Shown here in pieces: positions 14,422 through 37,362 of a stretch of 64,000 nucleotides of DNA. The stretch is from Lewinella sp. LCG006 (lineage in GTDB: Bacteria > Bacteroidota > Bacteroidia > Chitinophagales > Saprospiraceae), in contig NZ_CP160680.1 in assembly GCF_040784935.1 (NCBI RefSeq), positions 1,603,501-1,667,500 of the forward strand, given 5' to 3'. Under the pieces are notes generated by a model. It saw only the letters and a list, made by a program, of their open reading frames with translations. It ran no database searches and was not told the origin of the DNA. Numbering within the stretch: position 1 is the first letter of the stretch; every line of letters starts with the position of its first letter. Both the position numbers and the translations under genes were made by a program.

Positions 14422-14473
14422 AACAAAAATTGAGTCTCTGGAGCCGGCTTTAGTACCTTGTCCTTAGTAATTT

Positions 14474-14596
14474 GACGGAAATAAACCGATTTTCTTTTTT
14501 TGAAGATTTACCTTTTTACACACGCCTAGTCCAAGTATTCCTAGTCTTAGTGCAAAAAGCGAAATCAAAAGAAAATCGGTTTATTTTTTCTCCGTC
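14474..14596. repeat. Long hairpin repeat with conserved ends, copy 1 (123 bp)
   Basis: It begins GACGGAAATAAA and ends TTATTTTTTCTCCGTC, and its arms pair along most of their length (for example ACCGATTTTCTTTT with AAAAGAAAATCGGT), with a central loop. The second copy at 20200-20323 shares these outer ends but has a different stem. It lies just downstream of lon, so it may end or stabilise that transcript. Confidence 0.75.
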
Positions 14597-14691
14597 CTTA
14601 GTTAAGACGACTGACAAACGCTTTTGGTTTGTTTTTCTTCTCAAAGCTACGGTTTTTTTAGACCAACGGTCATAAATGGCTAAAAACCCAA

Positions 14692-17094
14692 CTATGGAAT
14701 AGCAATTTCCAGAACCTCTTCCATTCTCTCCACAAAGTGAAAGGTCAGGCCTTTGAGATACTGCTCACTGATTTCATCAATGTGTTTTTTGTTTTCCTGG
14801 CAAAGGATGATCTCTTTGATGCCTGCTCTTTTGGCCGCAAGGATTTTTTCTTTGATGCCTCCTACCGGCAAAACTTTACCGCGCAGAGTGATCTCACCCG
14901 TCATAGCGAGATATGATTTCACCTTTTTGTTAGAGAACAAACTCATCAATGTCGTCAGCATCGTTACCCCTGCGGAGGGACCATCTTTAGGAATGGCTCC
15001 TTCGGGAACGTGCAAGTGGATATCATTCTTTTCAAATTGCTCGACATCAAGCCCTAGTGCTTCACTGTTGGCTTTAAGGAAACTCAGCGCCGTAACGGCC
15101 GATTCCTTCATCACATCACCAAGGTTACCGGTGAGGGTCAGCTTGCCTTTCCCGGGACTCAAGCTACCTTCTACAAACAGGATCTCTCCTCCTACGCTCG
15201 TCCAGGCCAAACCGATGGTTACACCCGGTACTTTGACAACTTGGTAAGCATCGCGGGAATAATTTGTGGGCCCCAGTATTTGCGTCAGCTGGTCTTCCTG
15301 TATACTGACATCGTAGGTTTCTTCAAGCGCTACCGATTTCGCCACGTAGCGCATTACCCCGGCAATCTGACGATCCAGGGAACGAACGCCGGATTCGCGT
15401 GTGTAGCCACTAATGATTTTTTTAATCACCGAATCTCGCAATTTCACCTGAGTCGCCTTGATGCCATGAGCAGTACGCTGCTTAGGTACCAGGTGACGCT
15501 TGGTTATTTCTACCTTTTCCTCGGTAGAGTACCCCGTTACGCTGATAATTTCCATCCGGTCGAGTAGTGCTGGCTGAATACTGTTGAGGGTATTGGCCGT
15601 CGCAATAAACATCACCTTAGACAGGTCGTAATCAACGTCGAGATAATTATCATGAAAATTACTGTTCTGCTCTGGGTCCAGTACCTCTAGCAGTGCAGAG
15701 CTGGGATCTCCCCTGAAGCTGTTGCCTACCTTGTCGATTTCATCCAGGATGAAGACGGGATTAGCGGCACCCGCTTTTTTCATCGACTGGATGATCCGCC
15801 CCGGCATGGCACCAATGTAAGTACGACGATGCCCCCGAACTTCACTTTCATCGTGCAGACCTCCTAAGGAAATACGCACAAATTCACGGTTGAGTGCTTC
15901 GGCAATCGAACGCCCTAGAGAGGTCTTACCAACCCCTGGAGGGCCTACCAAACAGAGGATAGGCGCCTTCATATCCCCCTTAAGTTTCAAGACGGCCAAG
16001 TGCTCAATGATCCGTTCCTTCACTTTCTCCAACCCGTAGTGATCTTTATCGAGCACTTTGCGGACATTCTTCAGGTCGAAGTTGTCCGATGATGTTTTAT
16101 TCCAGGGAAGATCCAGCATCAGTTCCAGGTAATTCAGCTGGATGCTGTAATCAGGCACCTGAGGATTCATCCGTTGGATGCGCTCCATTTCTTTCTCAAA
16201 AAGCTTACCTACCTCCTCGGGCCAGTCTTTGCCTTCGGCTCTGGCTTTGAGTTTGTTGAGGTCTTCGTGCTGGGGGTTATTACCGAGCTCTTCCTGAATT
16301 GTTTTCAGTTGTTGATTGAGGTAGTAATCACGCTGCTGTTTCTCGATATCTATCCTGACCTTGCTGTCAATCTGGTCTTTTAGTTCCAGAATTTGCAGTT
16401 CGCTATTGAGTTGCTTGAGAATGGCCTCTGCTTTTTGGTGCAGGTTGGTCGTCTCCAGCATTTTTTGCTTCCACTCCAGGTTAGCCCCCATATTTGAGGC
16501 AATAAAATTAAGCAGAAAACTTGGTCCTTTGATGTTGCGCAATACCACCACCGCTTCCGAAGGAATATTGGGTGAAAGGTCGATAATGTTCTGCGCCAGA
16601 TCTTTCACACTAGCAATCAGTGCTTTGAATTTTGCGCTATCCCCTGGATCAGAATGTTCCAAAACACGAACCCGACCACGCAAATAGGGATCTTCAGACA
16701 GCATTTCCTCGAGTTGGATGCGTTTTTTTCCCTGCAAAATGGCCGTGAGTGTGCCATCAGGCATCTTCAATAACTTGAGGATATGAGCCACCGTCCCCAC
16801 CTCATAGAGATCAGCTTCTGATGGATCCTCAACATCAATATCTTTTTGCGAAAAAACAGCCACCTTCCGGCCGCCATTATCGTAAGCTTCATTGATTGCC
16901 TTGATGGACTTATCTCTTCCCACGGTGATGGGAATGACATTATTGGGAAAGAGCACCGTATTCTTAAGTGCTAAAATGGGGATTTCTTCAGGTATTACGT
17001 CTAATTTTTCCGTCTCTTCTTCTTCCATCGAAATGAACGGTAAAAAATCAGCTTCTTCCTCAATTCTTCTTTGCAAGCGCAATTCTTCAAACAT
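14692..17094 (-). CDS. lon: ATP-dependent protease Lon
   Basis: The protein is 800 aa, full length for bacterial LonA. The order is a N-terminal substrate-binding LON domain (about 35-240), a helical linker, an AAA+ module with Walker A GPPGVGKT (384-391) and Walker B VFILDEIDK (about 447-455), and a C-terminal protease domain. The Ser-Lys dyad is Ser707 in KDGPSAG and Lys750 in GGIKEKIL. It degrades misfolded and regulatory proteins in the cytoplasm. It is a single gene with a 190-bp upstream gap that contains a sigma54-like sequence. Confidence 0.98.
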   Translation of the reverse strand: MFEELRLQRRIEEEADFLPFISMEEEETEKLDVIPEEIPILALKNTVLFPNNVIPITVGRDKSIKAINEAYDNGGRKVAVFSQKDIDVEDPSEADLYEVGTVAHILKLLKMPDGTLTAILQGKKRIQLEEMLSEDPYLRGRVRVLEHSDPGDSAKFKALIASVKDLAQNIIDLSPNIPSEAVVVLRNIKGPSFLLNFIASNMGANLEWKQKMLETTNLHQKAEAILKQLNSELQILELKDQIDSKVRIDIEKQQRDYYLNQQLKTIQEELGNNPQHEDLNKLKARAEGKDWPEEVGKLFEKEMERIQRMNPQVPDYSIQLNYLELMLDLPWNKTSSDNFDLKNVRKVLDKDHYGLEKVKERIIEHLAVLKLKGDMKAPILCLVGPPGVGKTSLGRSIAEALNREFVRISLGGLHDESEVRGHRRTYIGAMPGRIIQSMKKAGAANPVFILDEIDKVGNSFRGDPSSALLEVLDPEQNSNFHDNYLDVDYDLSKVMFIATANTLNSIQPALLDRMEIISVTGYSTEEKVEITKRHLVPKQRTAHGIKATQVKLRDSVIKKIISGYTRESGVRSLDRQIAGVMRYVAKSVALEETYDVSIQEDQLTQILGPTNYSRDAYQVVKVPGVTIGLAWTSVGGEILFVEGSLSPGKGKLTLTGNLGDVMKESAVTALSFLKANSEALGLDVEQFEKNDIHLHVPEGAIPKDGPSAGVTMLTTLMSLFSNKKVKSYLAMTGEITLRGKVLPVGGIKEKILAAKRAGIKEIILCQENKKHIDEISEQYLKGLTFHFVERMEEVLEIAIP

Positions 17095-17171
17095 AATTTT
17101 GTCTGGATATTATCAGGATGCTAAGGTGTCAATCTGACAGCATCTATTCGTCAATGGATTATAGTATTGAT

Positions 17172-17187
17172 GGCAATATCTATGCCA
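17172..17187 (-). promoter_or_regulatory. Sigma54-like -24/-12 sequence or operator upstream of lon
   Basis: On the minus strand the sequence TGGCATAGATATTGCC has TGGCA and TTGC at the spacing of the sigma54 consensus (TGGCAC-N5-TTGC). It lies about 78 bp before the lon start. It is also a short inverted repeat (TGGCA/TGCCA), so it could instead be an operator. There is no supporting activator gene nearby. Confidence 0.3.
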
Positions 17188-17284
17188 CACCCTAAATGTA
17201 AGCGTTTTTTACAGCTAATGACAGCAGTAAACAACTGATAAAGGTCTACATGAGACAAAAAGACAGAAATGTATAAAACTAACT

Positions 17285-17761
17285 TTAAGTGAGGTTAGGC
17301 AACAAGAGACAATCGACGATGGACTTTAAACTCACAAAGATCGGCTCCCGACCTTCCTTGGTTACCGGTGATTCCTCATCGTCAAGAATAGCATCTTCCA
17401 CAAACGCCAACAGCTCTTCTTCCGCCGGATGTTCATCGAAAAAAACGGTCATGCGTTCCCTGAATTGGCGAGCAGTAACAGCTTCTAATAAACCCCAGTT
17501 GTGGTCTTCTGCCGCAGACAAATGGGTTTCTGTCACTGTTGCCTGAGAACCGAAGGTACGGAAGACTGATTTCCAGATCACACAGGAAAGGAAGAGCAGG
17601 AATTCCCTTTCTCGCTCCGTGAAAACCTCGAAGTTTTCGGAGAACAAATACGCTAATAAAACGGGTTGCTCTTGATTCATCAAATCAAGAGTGTGCTCAA
17701 GAGCTTTCTCTGAGGCGCTCAACTCTTCGGTTACTTCATCAATTATGAAAGCTTCGACCAT
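17285..17761 (-). CDS. Hypothetical cytoplasmic protein
   Basis: The protein is 158 aa, acidic, with no signal peptide or membrane segment. It is rich in helix-forming residues (for example ALEHTLDLMNQEQPVLLAYL and EREREFLLFLSCVIWKSVF). I do not recognise a family. It lies between lon and the OmpA-like gene, on the same strand as both, with a 46-bp gap to the latter's stop. The coding frame is long for its composition and starts at a good ATG, so I take it as real. Confidence 0.7.
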   Translation of the reverse strand: MVEAFIIDEVTEELSASEKALEHTLDLMNQEQPVLLAYLFSENFEVFTEREREFLLFLSCVIWKSVFRTFGSQATVTETHLSAAEDHNWGLLEAVTARQFRERMTVFFDEHPAEEELLAFVEDAILDDEESPVTKEGREPIFVSLKSIVDCLLLPNLT

Positions 17762-17807
17762 GCCGCTATAAAAGGCTCTTTTGGGGTGAGCCTTATCCCA
17801 AAGATAT

Positions 17808-18830
17808 TTAGCGATCCGGCAATTCCAAAATTATCAACTCTATTCGTTCGTTTTTTTGTTGTGCACGTGGAGCACTACCAGGCACTAGTGGAGATAAATT
17901 ACCGTATCCACGGAAGCTCAACTGCTGAATTCCGGCACCCTGCTGCAACCAATAATCCATGATGTTTTGCGATCGCTCACGGGTAATTTGCTGCGCCATT
18001 ATTGGGTCGGCAATGCCAAAAGAATGCGACCTCACCTCAATGTAGAGATCTGGATAAGCCCTTAACAGTGTCGCCCAAGGGCTTAAAACATCTTGGGCCG
18101 AAGGCTGTAACTGACTGTCGTTGGGCAAAAAGTGAATCCCCTCAAGAATGATGATTTGTCCAGCTTGTAGGGGGGCTCCATTGGCAGGATTCACCAATGG
18201 CCCTTTTGCGGCGCCTACTTTCGCCTGCCAATCACTTGGGTTATTGAAGGTCGTATTTAATGAGGATTGGATGTCATTTTCCAACTCCTCAGGTGAAGGT
18301 CGTCGGCTAATAATGGGAGCATCGTAGTATTGAGGCATTTCCTCCGCTGTTTTGTAAGCAGGTAAGACGGGAGTAGTAGGAATGCTAGCATTGGGATTGC
18401 GACCTTCCTGAAGATTACGGCCAATTTCCATTTTCAGCTCGTCGGGATCTTCTAACACGGAAACTTTTGGAGCTCCTTTGCGGGAAATCGTCGATTGCCC
18501 TCCACTTTCAGCATCCGACCAGAGGTAGTTGTCGTCATCGGCGTCGGTTTGTTCTTGCGCTTGCTGATCAGCTTCTTCTTGGTGAAAGCGCCGAAAACGT
18601 TTTTTCATATCTTCCACTTCGGCGCGGTTATCAGCACGCCGTTGGAGTTCATCTTCCGTAAGCGGAGAACGGGTTGTCCAATTTTGGGTTAAACTATCCT
18701 GTACAGTAAGGGAGTCTTGTCGTAAGACAAGGCTGGTATCTACCGGCAAGGGTGGGGTTTGCGCCAAAACAGCCGTACTCATCATTAATCCAGCAAAAAA
18801 AAGCAAAATTGTGTGGTTTCTCATGGTCAA
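17808..18830 (-). CDS. OmpA-family peptidoglycan-binding envelope protein
   Basis: The protein is 340 aa with a signal peptide (ILLFFAGLMMSTAVLAQ). The middle ~170 residues are low-complexity, charged and Pro-rich. The C-terminal ~115 residues form an OmpA domain: ILEGIHFLPNDSQLQPSAQ, LLRAYPDLYIEVRSHS, ITRERSQNIMDYWLQQG and LSFRGYGNLSPLV, ending QKNERIELIIL. Such domains hold the outer membrane to peptidoglycan. An internal Met two codons later is an equally good start. There is no beta-barrel N-domain. Confidence 0.85.
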   Translation of the reverse strand: MTMRNHTILLFFAGLMMSTAVLAQTPPLPVDTSLVLRQDSLTVQDSLTQNWTTRSPLTEDELQRRADNRAEVEDMKKRFRRFHQEEADQQAQEQTDADDDNYLWSDAESGGQSTISRKGAPKVSVLEDPDELKMEIGRNLQEGRNPNASIPTTPVLPAYKTAEEMPQYYDAPIISRRPSPEELENDIQSSLNTTFNNPSDWQAKVGAAKGPLVNPANGAPLQAGQIIILEGIHFLPNDSQLQPSAQDVLSPWATLLRAYPDLYIEVRSHSFGIADPIMAQQITRERSQNIMDYWLQQGAGIQQLSFRGYGNLSPLVPGSAPRAQQKNERIELIILELPDR

Positions 18831-18915
18831 CAGCTTTGCTGTTAAGACGTAAGAGCTGATTATTAGTCACTTAACTAGACTTAGTGAAAGAGCTTGCTAC
18901 CCCAGAGTACGGCTT

Positions 18916-20109
18916 TTAACGTTTTTGAACCGGAAAAATCCTCCTCCCTTTTTGCCAAACACCTTCCAACTGGCGCAGATCCTCCATCGACTTTAAGGGA
19001 TCACCTTTAATCAGTAAAAAACTTGCAGCTGCACCCACTTGAAGGGGTAGTGGCCCGGCCAAACCAAAATAATGAGCACTTTTAACCGTAGCTCCAGCCA
19101 GACATTCCTGGTTAGGAATTCCAGCAGCGGCCAGCAAAATCAATTCTTCGTAAAGATCGCTGCCATGGTTGATGCCAAAATTGGGAGGATCGGTCCCTGC
19201 TAATACCTGTACTCCGACCCCATGCAATCGCCGGATTTCATTGAGTATTCCCAGGCTATCGAGTGTTTCTGCCGGTTTTTCCGCTTGTTGCTCAAAATAA
19301 GCAAGCAATTTCATGTTGGTAAGTGTAGTAGGGACGATGAAGAAATCCTCCCGCTGCTCAAACACTCGAAGCTCTTCGTCGGTCATGGCCCGATCAAACC
19401 AGACGTGCACCAGACCATCAATACCCAAGCGTGCCAGCTCTACACCATCGGCACAACGAGAAACGTGGGACACTACCTTCACCCCTCGTTCGTGGGCGGT
19501 TTGGATAATGGTATCTATCTGTTCAAAGCTCAGGGTAGGTCGCATCGGTTCTCGCAAAATTTTAATATAATCGACCCCTTCCGCAATACGATCAAGGGTA
19601 AACTGACGTGCAGAGGTGACGCTGTCAATAGTTGGCACTGGCATCCCGAATTGTGTGCCGTGCCCCCCTGGAACCGTCGCTCCTGAGCCCGCTGCATAGT
19701 AATGCGCGTAGCCGATCGTATCTTTAAACTGTCCTAAGAGTTGTGCCGTAAAAGCAGACCCATGCATATCACAGACCGCAAAAATGCCCGCCTGTGCTGC
19801 TTGTTGCAAATGGAAAGGAAACCAGGTATGCACATGGGTATTCACCAAACCAGGTAGCAAGGTATACCCCTCCCCATTAATGACTTGGCTAGCGCGGCGT
19901 TGGCGCGCCAACTGTGGCCCCAAATGCGTGATCATTCCGTCTTTAACGCCTATATCGGTCGCTTTGAGCACTTCATTTCCTGTAAAAACCTGCACGTCGG
20001 TAATGAGTAAATCCCACTGGTCGTCGGTCTGCCCATGAATGGATGACATCGCAACCGATAAAAGAAGGAACAGCAAAAGGTAAGGTTTCATAGCTTTAGT
20101 ATTCATCAA
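18916..20109 (-). CDS. Secreted amidohydrolase-family metal-dependent hydrolase
   Basis: The protein is 397 aa with a signal peptide (LLFLLLSVAMSSIHGQ). The metal ligands appear in order: HVH in GLVNTHVHTW, Lys-containing YIKILREP, His in VVSHVSRC, His in LVHVWFD and Asp in LAGTDPPNFG. This is the imidazolonepropionase/TatD-like amidohydrolase layout seen in secreted Bacteroidota enzymes. The substrate is unknown. The signal peptide supports a start at 20109 or at the Met six codons later. It is a single gene. Confidence 0.87.
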   Translation of the reverse strand: MMNTKAMKPYLLLFLLLSVAMSSIHGQTDDQWDLLITDVQVFTGNEVLKATDIGVKDGMITHLGPQLARQRRASQVINGEGYTLLPGLVNTHVHTWFPFHLQQAAQAGIFAVCDMHGSAFTAQLLGQFKDTIGYAHYYAAGSGATVPGGHGTQFGMPVPTIDSVTSARQFTLDRIAEGVDYIKILREPMRPTLSFEQIDTIIQTAHERGVKVVSHVSRCADGVELARLGIDGLVHVWFDRAMTDEELRVFEQREDFFIVPTTLTNMKLLAYFEQQAEKPAETLDSLGILNEIRRLHGVGVQVLAGTDPPNFGINHGSDLYEELILLAAAGIPNQECLAGATVKSAHYFGLAGPLPLQVGAAASFLLIKGDPLKSMEDLRQLEGVWQKGRRIFPVQKR

Positions 20110-20163
20110 TAGTAATAGCTCCTAAAATTACGCAAGCATTTATACAACGCTCCACTTTAGTAA

Positions 20164-20200
20164 TTTAGCTTCGCTGATCGTCGCAAACTCCTCAAAGTTG
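20164..20200. repeat. 37-bp segment shared with MITE copy 1
   Basis: TTTAGCTTCGCTGATCGTCG and the bases that follow match, inverted, the extra segment at 1811-1847 in MITE copy 1, with only about four differences. It runs directly into the hairpin repeat at 20200. It seems to be a piece of a repeat that recombines between families. Confidence 0.6.
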
Positions 20201-20323
20201 ACGGAAATAAATGAAACAACTTTCTTTTGAGATTTTTGAAAATTTTCTAAACAATCTCCTTATAGTCAATTGTTTAGAAGATTTTCAAAAATCGAAAGCT
20301 GTTTCACTTATTTTTTCTCCGTC
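20200..20323. repeat. Long hairpin repeat with conserved ends, copy 2 (124 bp)
   Basis: It begins GACGGAAATAAA and ends TTATTTTTTCTCCGTC, the same ends as 14474-14596. The internal arms pair nearly perfectly (GATTTTTGAAAATTTTCTAA with its mate) but differ in sequence from copy 1. It sits 2 bp after the stop of the CoiA-like gene (minus strand), the same relative position as copy 1 has to lon. Confidence 0.8.
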
Positions 20324-20325
20324 TC

Positions 20326-21195
20326 TTATCGACCAATTTCTATTCCTGGATTACAAAGCACTTCTATGGGCAAAGTATTGATGTTGTGATAACCCACGAA
20401 CTGCTGCTGGTAATTGATTTTTCGGCAATGCTCACAATGCAGGCAATCCTGAAAAACCCTGGCGTAGGAGTGGCCTTCTCTAAAGCACCGGCGAACAAAG
20501 CGGAGATTTCGCGGACAGCGATACACGTGGTAATGGTAGTACTGTCCCTGCTTACTGCGATACACTTTCCGAACCGTAGCTGTCTGGGCCAATTTGTACT
20601 CATAACGGTGTTGCCAGGGATGAAACAACCACCTTCTGTTTTGGGAACCCTCTATAACACTCAAGGTTAACTGCTCCAGATTCCCCGCCGGATAATGAAG
20701 CAAATGTTGTTCATAAATACGGAGCATGTCTACTTCCACCGTTGGCAGATTGAGCTGTGCCAGGCGATGTATTTTCCGTTGCTCTGTCGAGTGGGTAACG
20801 CTTATTTCTACACCAAGCTCCTGTGGCCCGTCTTGCAGCAAGATATCTATTTGCGTACCCCCCAAGCGCGCTTCTTCTTTTGCTTTGGCAAACGCCTCTT
20901 CTCGACTTGCACGGAGTTGTTTAGCACGATAAGCATGGAGCGCCGGTGTACGAATACGCTTATGTTTGGCCACGATGGCTTTACCCAATAAGTGTAAAGA
21001 GGTTTCAAATGCAGCAGCACAATCAAATCCTTTTAGATGGGCAAAATGATGACGATTGCGGCGGCCTTTTTTTGCGATAAGCGGCACACGGCAAGCAGGA
21101 CAGGTACAAGCACAGGCACGGCCACTTGGTACTTCACTGATGTGCACCCATTCGCCTTCGCGCAAGGCAAAAATCAACTGGTTGGTCTTTTTCAC
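20326..21195 (-). CDS. CoiA-like competence/nuclease family protein
   Basis: With the GTG start at 21195 the protein is 289 aa; longer in-frame sequence upstream adds a hydrophobic stretch unlike the family. The N-terminus LIFALREGEWVHISEV, then CTCPACRVPL with HHFAH about 20 residues on, matches the zinc-finger-like opening of CoiA proteins. The nuclease-like core has GGTQIDILLQ and LGVEISVTHS (Asp and Glu of a PD-(D/E)xK-like site). The C-terminus has a further Cys-rich segment (CLHCEHC). CoiA acts on DNA taken up in competence in Firmicutes; the role here is unknown. No other competence gene is near. Confidence 0.68.
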   Translation of the reverse strand: MKKTNQLIFALREGEWVHISEVPSGRACACTCPACRVPLIAKKGRRNRHHFAHLKGFDCAAAFETSLHLLGKAIVAKHKRIRTPALHAYRAKQLRASREEAFAKAKEEARLGGTQIDILLQDGPQELGVEISVTHSTEQRKIHRLAQLNLPTVEVDMLRIYEQHLLHYPAGNLEQLTLSVIEGSQNRRWLFHPWQHRYEYKLAQTATVRKVYRSKQGQYYHYHVYRCPRNLRFVRRCFREGHSYARVFQDCLHCEHCRKINYQQQFVGYHNINTLPIEVLCNPGIEIGR

Positions 21196-23514: not shown

Positions 23515-25111
23515 CAGGGTGACCGGGAATAGGATTAGTTTAAGGCATAGAAAAATGTTATCATGTGTAACTATGGCGAAATTTAAGAATTATGAAATCG
23601 GGTCTGATCACTCAGTGATGATTGATTTAAGCCAACATCTTCCTTCCGAGCACCTAAGCAAGCAGATGGAGAGGATAATATCCAGCTTAGATACAAGTGC
23701 CATTGAGGCAACATATAGTGGTCTTGGACAAAATGCTTTGCATCCTAAATTACTGCTCAGTATCATTTTTTATGGATATGCCGTAGGCATTCGGAGCGGT
23801 CGGAAGTTAGCCAAAGCCTGTGAGGAAAACCTTGGCTTCATTTATTTGAGTAAAAACTATGGTCCTCAAAAGAGTTGCATCAATGATTTTCGTAGAGATA
23901 ACTATCTGCATTTTGGAGATCTTTTCGTCCAAGTACTAAAAAAGTGTCAGGAATTTGGTTTGGGGGATGCCACTTTTAGTATTGTGGATGGTAGCAAAGA
24001 GGAATCCAATAGCTCCAAGGGTCGGACAAAAACGGCAGCACAATATGAAAAATGGCAACAGGTACTCTTGGATGATATTGCCTCATTAGAAAAAGAGCCT
24101 TCTGATGAGGGATCTCAAAAAAAAAATAGTAGCGAACAAACGCCTGTACAAAAAAATCAGTGATGCCATTGAGGTCATGAAAACCGATGAGTCCAAAAAG
24201 ACGATGAACTTAACCGATCCGGATGCCCCGATCATGAAAGGTAAAAAAGGAAACTTTGATACGAATTATAATATCCAGGTAGCCTGTAGTGAAGATCAAA
24301 TTATCTCCTATAATAATGTGGTCTTAGATGGCAATGATAAAGCACAACTGATCCCTGCTCTTCAAGGCATTCAAGCCAACACTGGTCAACAGGTCCAGGT
24401 TGTCCTAGCCGATGCTGACTTTGGCACTTTCGACAGTTTTGAATACATGGACACCAACAACATCTGTGGATACGTCCCTTACCGAGACATGAATGCCACT
24501 TTTGAAAATCAACCTTTTAATAGTGTTCATTTTGACTATGACGATCAACGAGATGTATACACTTGCCCGGCTAAGCACACCCTATCGTTCAAAAGCATTA
24601 AAATAGACCGGACTCGTAATAAAGAATATCGCCAATATCGCACGACGGCGTGTAAAAACTGCCCTTTCAAAGATGAATGTACTCCTAAGAGGTCTCCTTA
24701 TCGTACGATCTTAAGAGAAGTAAGACAAGCATTAAGAGACCAAATGAAGCAGCGATTAAATATCCCAGAAGGCAAAAAGATGTATAACCGACGACTACAC
24801 CCCATTGAAGCCATTTTTGGCCATTTGAAATACAATCTGGGATATACTCGGTTTTTACTCCGGGGCCTGGAAAAAGTAAAAGCGGAATTTACGTTGATGT
24901 GCTTGGCCAATAACTTACGTAAATTGGCCAAGTACCTCCTTTTTCCATCAATTTGGACAGTAAAGGCCATATTTTGGCTTCTCAAGGCACAAAACATCTT
25001 GTTTAACCCGATTTTTCAAAGAACTTGGCCGGAACCAATGGATCAATTCGCAGGAGTTACACTTGCTTATTTATCCTCATGTATTCCCAAATCCTATTCC
25101 CGGTCACCCTG
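23515..25111 (+). mobile_element. IS1182-like insertion sequence (1597 bp)
   Basis: The ends are inverted: CAGGGTGACCGGGAATAGGA at the left and its exact complement at the right. They are flanked by a direct CTTA duplication (23511-23514 and 25112-25115). Inside is a DDE transposase in two overlapping frames. The family assignment rests on the DUF772-like N-domain and the spacing of the catalytic motifs, not on a search. Confidence 0.9.
23573..24163 (+). CDS. IS1182-like transposase, N-terminal frame
   Basis: This frame encodes about 196 aa from the ATG at 23573 (MAKFKNYEIG). It holds the DUF772-type N-domain (ALHPKLLLSIIFYGYAVGIR, FIYLSKNYGPQKSCINDFRR) and the first catalytic Asp in SIVDGSKEESNSSKG. 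At a run of ten A (24117-24126) the frame leaves the rest of the transposase and stops after 12 further residues. The second frame continues the protein if one A is skipped. In-frame sequence upstream of the chosen start reaches back into the terminal repeat. Confidence 0.8.
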   Translation: MAKFKNYEIGSDHSVMIDLSQHLPSEHLSKQMERIISSLDTSAIEATYSGLGQNALHPKLLLSIIFYGYAVGIRSGRKLAKACEENLGFIYLSKNYGPQKSCINDFRRDNYLHFGDLFVQVLKKCQEFGLGDATFSIVDGSKEESNSSKGRTKTAAQYEKWQQVLLDDIASLEKEPSDEGSQKKNSSEQTPVQKNQ

Positions 25112-36877: not shown

Positions 36878-37362
36878 TTATGTTGATTGAATCACCTCCT
36901 TTGCCAACAATGGCTCCTGCAGGTGAAAAGGACCGCTTTTTATCTTATGCAAGGCCTCGTCAATATCTATACCCGTTACTAAGTGGTCTGGGACATTCTC
37001 ACTTGTCCTTTTTTGCTCTGACTGCGTTAAAAAGCCTCGCCGAAGCTTAGGCTTCGCCTACGTTTTTCGCCTTGGCAGAGCAAAAAATGACGTTGCGATA
37101 ATATTCCCAAACCACTTAGTGCCGGGTATAGTTCAAAGCGGGCATCTATCACAAAAGCTTCGTGGGCGTAAAGGCCCGACCGGAGTAGTTCAGGATTGGC
37201 CTTAAACTTTACCTCCATTTGCCTTTTCCTTTCCTCGTATTTCAAACGGATGTCTTCCAACACGCGCACGGGCAAACTACCAAACAGGCGGTAGGTCAGA
37301 TGTACCGGGCGGTAGCCCAGGTTTTGGTGAGGGATCTTGGCATTTGGTTTTTGCATTATCAT
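36878..37362 (-). pseudogene. REP-associated tyrosine transposase (RAYT) remnant, interrupted and truncated
   Basis: The N-terminal part (from the ATG at 37362) reads PVHLTYRLFGSLPVRVLEDI and later AHEAFVIDARFE, the opening of the RAYT/IS200-like family. It then runs into the MITE at 36968-37130. Beyond the MITE the sequence resumes with DIDEALHKIKSGPFHLQEPL, as expected for the next part of the family, and stops after VIQST. Removing the MITE and leaving one TA joins the parts in frame (ARFE-L-DIDEA). The HUH catalytic motif and the rest of the gene are missing, so it is inactive. The flanking palindrome at 37379 could be its REP. Confidence 0.7.
36968..37130. repeat. MITE-like element, copy 2 (TA-flanked, 163 bp), inserted in the RAYT remnant
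   Basis: The ends TATACCCGTTACTAAGTGGT (left) and TATACCCGGCACTAAGTGGT (right, inverted) match copy 1 at 1671-1866, as does the interior. The copy lacks the 33-bp insertion of copy 1. The in-frame join after removal with one TA left supports a TA target duplication. Confidence 0.88.

Follow-up and report, generated by a model that had tools for sequence, protein, structure and literature searches.

The window analysed here is a 64,000-nucleotide stretch of the Lewinella sp. LCG006 genome (contig NZ_CP160680.1, positions 1,603,501 to 1,667,500 of the forward strand), and it contains two hairpins, one neighbouring lon and the other lying directly at the end of a CoiA-like gene, with both genes on the minus strand. 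The sequence GACGGAAATAAA begins at coordinates 14474 and 20200 and TTATTTTTTCTCCGTC terminates at 14596 and 20323; a preliminary description that delimited the hairpins by these shared ends placed the ends correctly, but the true boundaries are wider, at 14467–14597 and 20160–20325, and each element is flanked by TTA. The arms pair inside each hairpin and their sequences differ between the two. Folding exceeds that of shuffled sequences on both strands, with z scores of -6.8 (element 1) and -9.3 (element 2) on the plus strand and -9.1 and -9.5, respectively, on the minus strand, and none of 200 shuffles equals either element on either strand. The parts of the two elements are listed below; the covariance model was built from the 31 aligned copies treated further below.

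14464..14466, no strand: left target-site duplication TTA of element 1, from the L. cohaerens empty site CCTTGTCCTTATTTAAGACG
14467..14597, plus strand: hairpin element 1 (subfamily C), 131 bp, from the L. cohaerens empty site; covariance-model match 14467–14598, 129 bits
14474..14479, plus strand: 5' side of the element 1 foot helix, partner 14591–14596, from the fold and the alignment pairs
14499..14504, plus strand: conserved 6-nt bulge TTTGAA in the 5' arm of element 1, from the fold; same site in alignment A1 and most other genera
14530..14540, plus strand: apical loop of element 1, from the fold
14586..14590, plus strand: conserved 5-nt bulge TTTTC in the 3' arm of element 1, from the fold; same site in alignment A1 and most other genera
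14598..14600, no strand: right target-site duplication TTA of element 1, from the L. cohaerens empty-site comparison
20157..20159, no strand: left target-site duplication TTA of element 2, from the L. cohaerens empty-site comparison
20160..20325, plus strand: hairpin element 2 (subfamily D), 166 bp, of which 33 bp are a nested repeat, from the L. cohaerens empty site CCACTTTATCGGC; covariance-model match 20193–20325, 112 bits
20167..20199, plus strand: nested 33-bp repeat AGCTTCGCTGATCGTCGCAAACTCCTCAAAGTT, between GTAATTT and GACGG of element 2; absent from most copies
20225..20230, plus strand: 6-nt bulge TTTTGA in the 5' arm of element 2, from the fold
20231..20293, plus strand: inner stem (25 bp) and 13-nt loop of element 2, from the fold and alignment A1, column 56
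20313..20317, plus strand: 5-nt bulge TTTTC in the 3' arm of element 2, from the fold
20326..20328, no strand: right target-site duplication TTA of element 2, which is the stop codon of the CoiA-like gene (TAA on the minus strand), from the empty-site comparison and the list of open reading frames

The genome is a single contig of 7.5 Mb, and motif searches of it were run against reversed-motif controls. The left end, allowing at most one mismatch, gives 94 genome matches compared to 7 for the reversed control, and the right-end motif, allowing at most two, gives 80 compared to 17, such that the shared ends are not a matter of chance and dozens of further copies are present. We extracted 80 elements, two of them from a sister species and a few of them counted twice. 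The standard element is 131–133 bp long (~132 bp), other copies having internal deletions or a 27-bp insert, and it is without coding capacity, there being no ORF of 80 aa inside the element (131–166 bp). Terminal inverted repeats are present (GT..GACGGA and TCCGTC..AC) and are broken by offset 5-nt bulges. Stem sequence separates the copies into subfamilies A (CTGATTCC...), with variants CTGCCCCC, CGGATTCC, and TTTATTCC, C (window element 1), and D (window element 2), with one mixed form (L095). The copies are scattered singly between unrelated genes, and where both neighbours are known (32 copies) these are divergent in 11, tandem in 11 and 6, and convergent in only 4, following no rule; the position downstream of minus-strand genes that the preliminary description had noted at both loci thus does not hold generally.

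Comparison with L. cohaerens shows that the hairpins are insertions. At the lon-neighbour locus L. cohaerens has CCTTGTCCTTATTTAAGACG, whereas this genome has CCTTGTCCTTA, the 131-bp element, and TTAGTTAAGACG; at the second locus the L. cohaerens empty site is CCACTTTATCGGC, and this genome has CCACTTTA, 166 bp, and TTATCGACC. A single TTA in L. cohaerens corresponds to TTA on both sides of the element here, and the duplication is therefore TTA. The left and right flanking triplets agree in 55 of the 80 extracted elements compared to 26 expected from triplet frequencies, and the agreeing pairs include rare triplets (CAA/CAA, ATA/ATA, CTA/CTA), with further ones, such as ATA/ATA and CAA/CAA, in another genome (G089). 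Insertion sites correspond to (C)TWA(G) with a 3-bp duplication, and CTTAG is preferred. The same duplication accompanies a nested insertion (L013/L087), in which an A copy lies inside a C copy and CTTAG has become CTTA, the element, and TTAG. A 4-bp duplication, CTTA, was considered and ruled out, because the right triplet is always preceded by C whereas the corresponding left base is variable. The element is thus mobile, and both its nature as a transposon insertion and the 3-bp target duplication had gone unseen in the preliminary description. Because targets are TWA and are duplicated, insertion at a stop codon is harmless, which explains the location of the window hairpins just downstream of genes. 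In one genome (G094) the left triplet varies and the right one is always TTA, with no clean duplication, which counts against the general pattern. One insertion with the same flanks is common to G094 and G175, which are genomes of different genera, perhaps reflecting mis-binned contigs (loci L163, L175, L185, and L164 for the two observations).

Being short and gene-free, with inverted ends, a target duplication, and empty sites, the element is a MITE. Like the bacterial MITEs ERIC/IRU, Correia/NEMIS, YPAL, and RPE, it is smaller than 200 bp, non-coding, and dispersed between genes, and it has a long stem-loop and a target duplication; internal insertions in some copies are likewise found both in bacterial MITEs and in the Lewinella hairpins (PMC2229807). 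Those families are defined by conserved sequence and mostly have TA termini (PMC2229807), whereas the Lewinella hairpins exchange their sequence and their ends between subfamilies and genera, keep shape and length, and duplicate TWA.

Several derivatives of the element are present. A 27–28-bp palindrome, CCTGCCTACCTGCGGTACGCAGGCAGG, interrupts several copies (L021, L029, L030, L050, L056, L086, and others), lying in the 3' arm of A copies and, in one D copy, in the loop; in L103 it takes the place of the whole inner stem. Solo 19-bp pieces, GTTATTTTTGATCCGTCAC, are present at L042, L046, L048, L053, L055, L058, L067, and L027, with flanking triplets that mostly match. These pieces, which lie between two TAA triplets, could be taken as mini-elements, but they are better read as deletions, probably spanning the hairpin from one of the repeats GTAATTT and GTTATTT to the other, and L058 is a hybrid of the two repeats. 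Many further deletion derivatives are present, including in G089.

The covariance model found relatives, mostly 128–135 bp long, in 13 of 150 genomes of the family (11 genera), whereas 395 genomes from elsewhere in the phylum gave none; the viral contigs searched contain no match to the element. Matches to the exact pattern are found in L. cohaerens, Lewinella MAGs, Phaeodactylibacter xiamenensis, and Saprospiraceae MAGs. Rfam gave only generic miRNA-hairpin matches below threshold (element 1 and L159) and none at gathering score in the window.

The folded shape and length of the element are kept while nearly the whole sequence, ends included, is replaced through paired changes in the arms. 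Across 31 aligned copies, 96.0% of stem cells pair, compared to 77.8% in shuffles and 39–55% when the pairing is slid. Double changes affect 27 of 44 pairs, more than in any shuffle or slid control, and 217 cells, compared to 59 cells in shuffles and 31–59 under slid pairing; covariation scores 0.442 compared to 0.121. The shuffle controls ignore the relatedness of copies and overstate significance, whereas the slid control does not and is also exceeded. The two arms thus change together, as had been proposed from the two window copies, and neither of the conditions under which that proposal would have failed, a lack of further copies or stems without covariation, holds. Across genera, 88% of cells are Watson-Crick pairs compared to 33–45% when slid, at a median pairwise identity of 55%; this alignment, having been fitted to the model, is biased in its favour. 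The terminal motifs too are exchanged, with the two sides changing in step, as GACGG/CCGTC, GAGC/GCTC, GGGACA/TGTCCC, GGGGC/GCCCC, and GGTC/GACC, while the 5-nt bulge in the 3' arm, the 6-nt bulge in the 5' arm, the CAC/TTAG internal loop, and the apical loop near CCTTNNAGTCA are kept in most members from other genera. The interior of subfamily A reads CAC...CTTAG around the apical loop, so that the strands of the internal loop correspond to the right end of the element and its preferred left flank, and the top of the hairpin resembles a junction of two elements.

The variants within the genome suggest how the arms come to change together. The outer stem of subfamily A, whose roughly 45 copies are nearly identical, occurs in several forms matched in both arms, CTGATTCC (16 copies), CTTATTCC (9), CTGCCCCC (4), CTGCTTCC (2), CGGATTCC (2), and others, and there are nine one-sided stem hybrids, of which five run in one direction and four in the opposite one (Fisher p 0.014). 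Three pairs are altered at once by the change from ATTCC to CCCCC, and in the sole partial form observed, CTGCTTCC, the two arms also match. Two members have the CAC/TTAG loop mended into a perfect helix, in opposite directions, the 3' arm having been copied in window element 2, with one extra base (alignment A1, column 56), and the 5' arm in L159. Template switching creates and maintains hairpin stems (PMC8794818), and these clustered repairs have the footprint expected of it. Bulges ought to be lost through it as well, and their persistence in most genera leads us to infer selection on shape in addition. The preliminary description had offered palindrome copying or selection on structure as alternatives, and the clustered two-way corrections, together with the same unpaired features in most other genera, suggest that both operate at once.

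Mismatches in the stem are biased between the strands. Unbiased mutation of double-stranded DNA would give equal counts of A·C and G·T, but among 32 representatives, which are related sequences, there are 45 A·C cells and 10 G·T (30 and 9 as distinct events). The A·C cells are G·T wobbles on the reverse complement, making that strand the better candidate for a functional fold; the bias is suggestive of a functional folded strand that is the minus strand of the window.

Other known systems share some of these features. GTAG-tagged REP/RAYT elements (PMC3733652) also have an unpaired GTAG-like tag 5' of the stem (GTAG, GTAA, or GTAT here) and complementary stem changes among subfamilies, but REPs are 20–40 bp (PMC3733652) rather than 131–133 bp, and the Lewinella hairpins have a clear 3-bp duplication and no adjoining Y1/RAYT gene. 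Integron attC sites are similarly imperfect palindromes kept by structure, with asymmetric unpaired bases and one strand favoured, the bottom strand as stated in PMC2117344. The hairpins differ in having no RYYYAAC/GTTRRRY core ends (they end in GTAATTTGACGG ... CCGTCAC, and the inner GTTATTT does not fit GTTRRRY), and in being scattered singly with target duplications, with no cassette array seen. The 3-bp TWA duplication is shared with eukaryotic PIF/Harbinger elements and Tourist MITEs (PMC4482050), although the ends are different and DDE_Tnp_4 is lacking in this genome and in 12 of 16 genomes searched. A limited search of the open-access literature found no description of the element, in agreement with the earlier impression that no described family has such a pattern.

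No obvious mobilizer accompanies the hairpins. Among the left ends (at most one mismatch) read in this genome there is no gene-bearing full-length copy, those without a right end being truncated or decayed, and in G089, where 30 of 37 left ends were read, the ORFs of one one-sided locus (L206) include no transposase. Known MITEs often lack an autonomous partner, so that its absence here lowers, but does not exclude, membership of that class. No transposase recurs beside the copies among the 25 commonest Pfam families listed for 88 neighbouring ORFs. A Y1/RAYT mobilizer was rejected, as none of the four Y1 genes in the genome has this hairpin within 1.5 kb, and DDE_Tnp_4 was likewise rejected, none being found in G000–G003, G089, G094, G121, or G147. 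Two of the Y1 transposase genes (L123 and L124) adjoin their own, different palindromes (GCGTCGGGTTTCAAACC... and GTCCTTTCAGGAC...), which probably represent separate REP families.

We consider it likely that the hairpins are non-autonomous, MITE-like elements moved in trans, with arms that would be maintained by template-switch copying together with selection on shape. A trans-acting transposase would recognise the element partly by its folded shape, and template switching during replication would copy one arm onto the other, such that the arms stay complementary. Copies losing the shape (foot helix, 5-nt bulge, 6-nt bulge, CAC/TTAG internal loop, or apical loop) would stop moving, and a subfamily would originate when a change in one arm is transferred to the other and the resulting copy multiplies. 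The strand whose fold counts would be the reverse complement, to judge by the mismatch bias. Covariation is normally taken as proof of a functional RNA; here it is strong in a mobile DNA element, where it probably arises through template switching and selection on a DNA fold, and the family therefore offers a test case for separating the two. With many near-identical copies whose matched stems differ, and with empty sites in a sister species that is in culture, the process can be dated.

DDE transposases usually require terminal repeats only, and the whole-length shape is therefore not explained by an ordinary MITE. That such an enzyme reads just the terminal repeats, with arm complementarity a by-product of template switching and no selection on the fold, seems to us rather unlikely: a 3-bp TWA duplication with a CTTAG preference is typical of DDE transposition (TWA in PIF/Harbinger; PMC4482050), clustered arm corrections are observed, and the one-sided hybrids indicate that imperfect stems persist, but most genera show the same length, internal loop, and asymmetric bulges although template switching should remove bulges and the sequence has turned over, the terminal motifs are themselves replaced, and the mismatches are strand-biased.

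It is unlikely that what transposes is the folded single strand itself, as happens with attC sites and IS200/IS605 ends, through an enzyme able to generate the 3-bp duplication. A single-strand substrate would fit the keeping of shape while sequence is replaced, the mismatch bias favouring wobble on one strand, and the conserved asymmetric bulges, but the known single-strand systems (Y1 HUH and IntI) are not known to leave a target duplication, and none of the four Y1 genes of this genome has such a hairpin nearby, two of them adjoining different palindromes. Just as tentative is the idea of a transposon family defined by a DNA-strand fold and not by its sequence, in which the enzyme would read a one-strand hairpin with offset bulges and leave the 3-bp duplication, and copying between arms would let the sequence and ends drift between hosts. 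Should the fold be the substrate, the Saprospiraceae would be expected to harbour an undescribed transposition enzyme combining hairpin recognition with target duplication.

The window also contains, at 23515–25111, an IS1182-family element (named DDE_Tnp_1_6 / IS1182 by Pfam and plasmid matches) with inverted ends CAGGGTGACCGGGAATAGG and CTTA on both flanks, which is the favoured target of the hairpins. Its ends partly match the hairpin pattern TGACGGAAATA, and TGAC-GG-AATA is common to these ends and TGACGGAAATAA. Movement of the hairpins in trans by this family is nonetheless improbable, as the end similarity is weak and comes from a single copy, the transposase is split over two overlapping frames and may be broken or frameshifted, and the hairpins themselves are not found beside the IS1182 copy. 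A functional RNA or transcription terminator with structure selected in place is hardly credible in spite of the strong fold on both strands and the position of element 2 at a gene end, given that the hairpins are absent from the orthologous L. cohaerens loci, neither element contains an intrinsic-terminator site, neighbouring genes face all ways, plus-strand G-U pairs are nearly lacking (3 cells), and no Rfam family reaches gathering score in the window. Shape-selected MITE-like elements moved in trans thus remain our preferred reading.

The 33-bp repeat (AGCTWCGCTGATCGTCGCAARCTCCTC..AGTT) nested in element 2 is a separate unit. It is present within L005, L010, L015, L037, and L061 and absent from most hairpin copies, and the notion that this extension is the end of an autonomous IS was ruled out, as it is a distinct repeat that occurs in a wide range of contexts. 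The genus has dozens of copies of it, and in the window it is inserted cleanly in two unrelated hairpin families, at 20167–20199 in element 2 and at about 1815–1848; it is perhaps a tiny mobile unit with hairpins as its target. The latter copy lies in a hairpin at 1670–1867, which has a twin without the repeat at 36967–37131. These two are copies of another long nested hairpin family (CTATACCCGTTACTAAGTGGT ... ACCACTTAGTGCCGGGTATAG), also present in L. cohaerens (L293, with a diverged form at L291).
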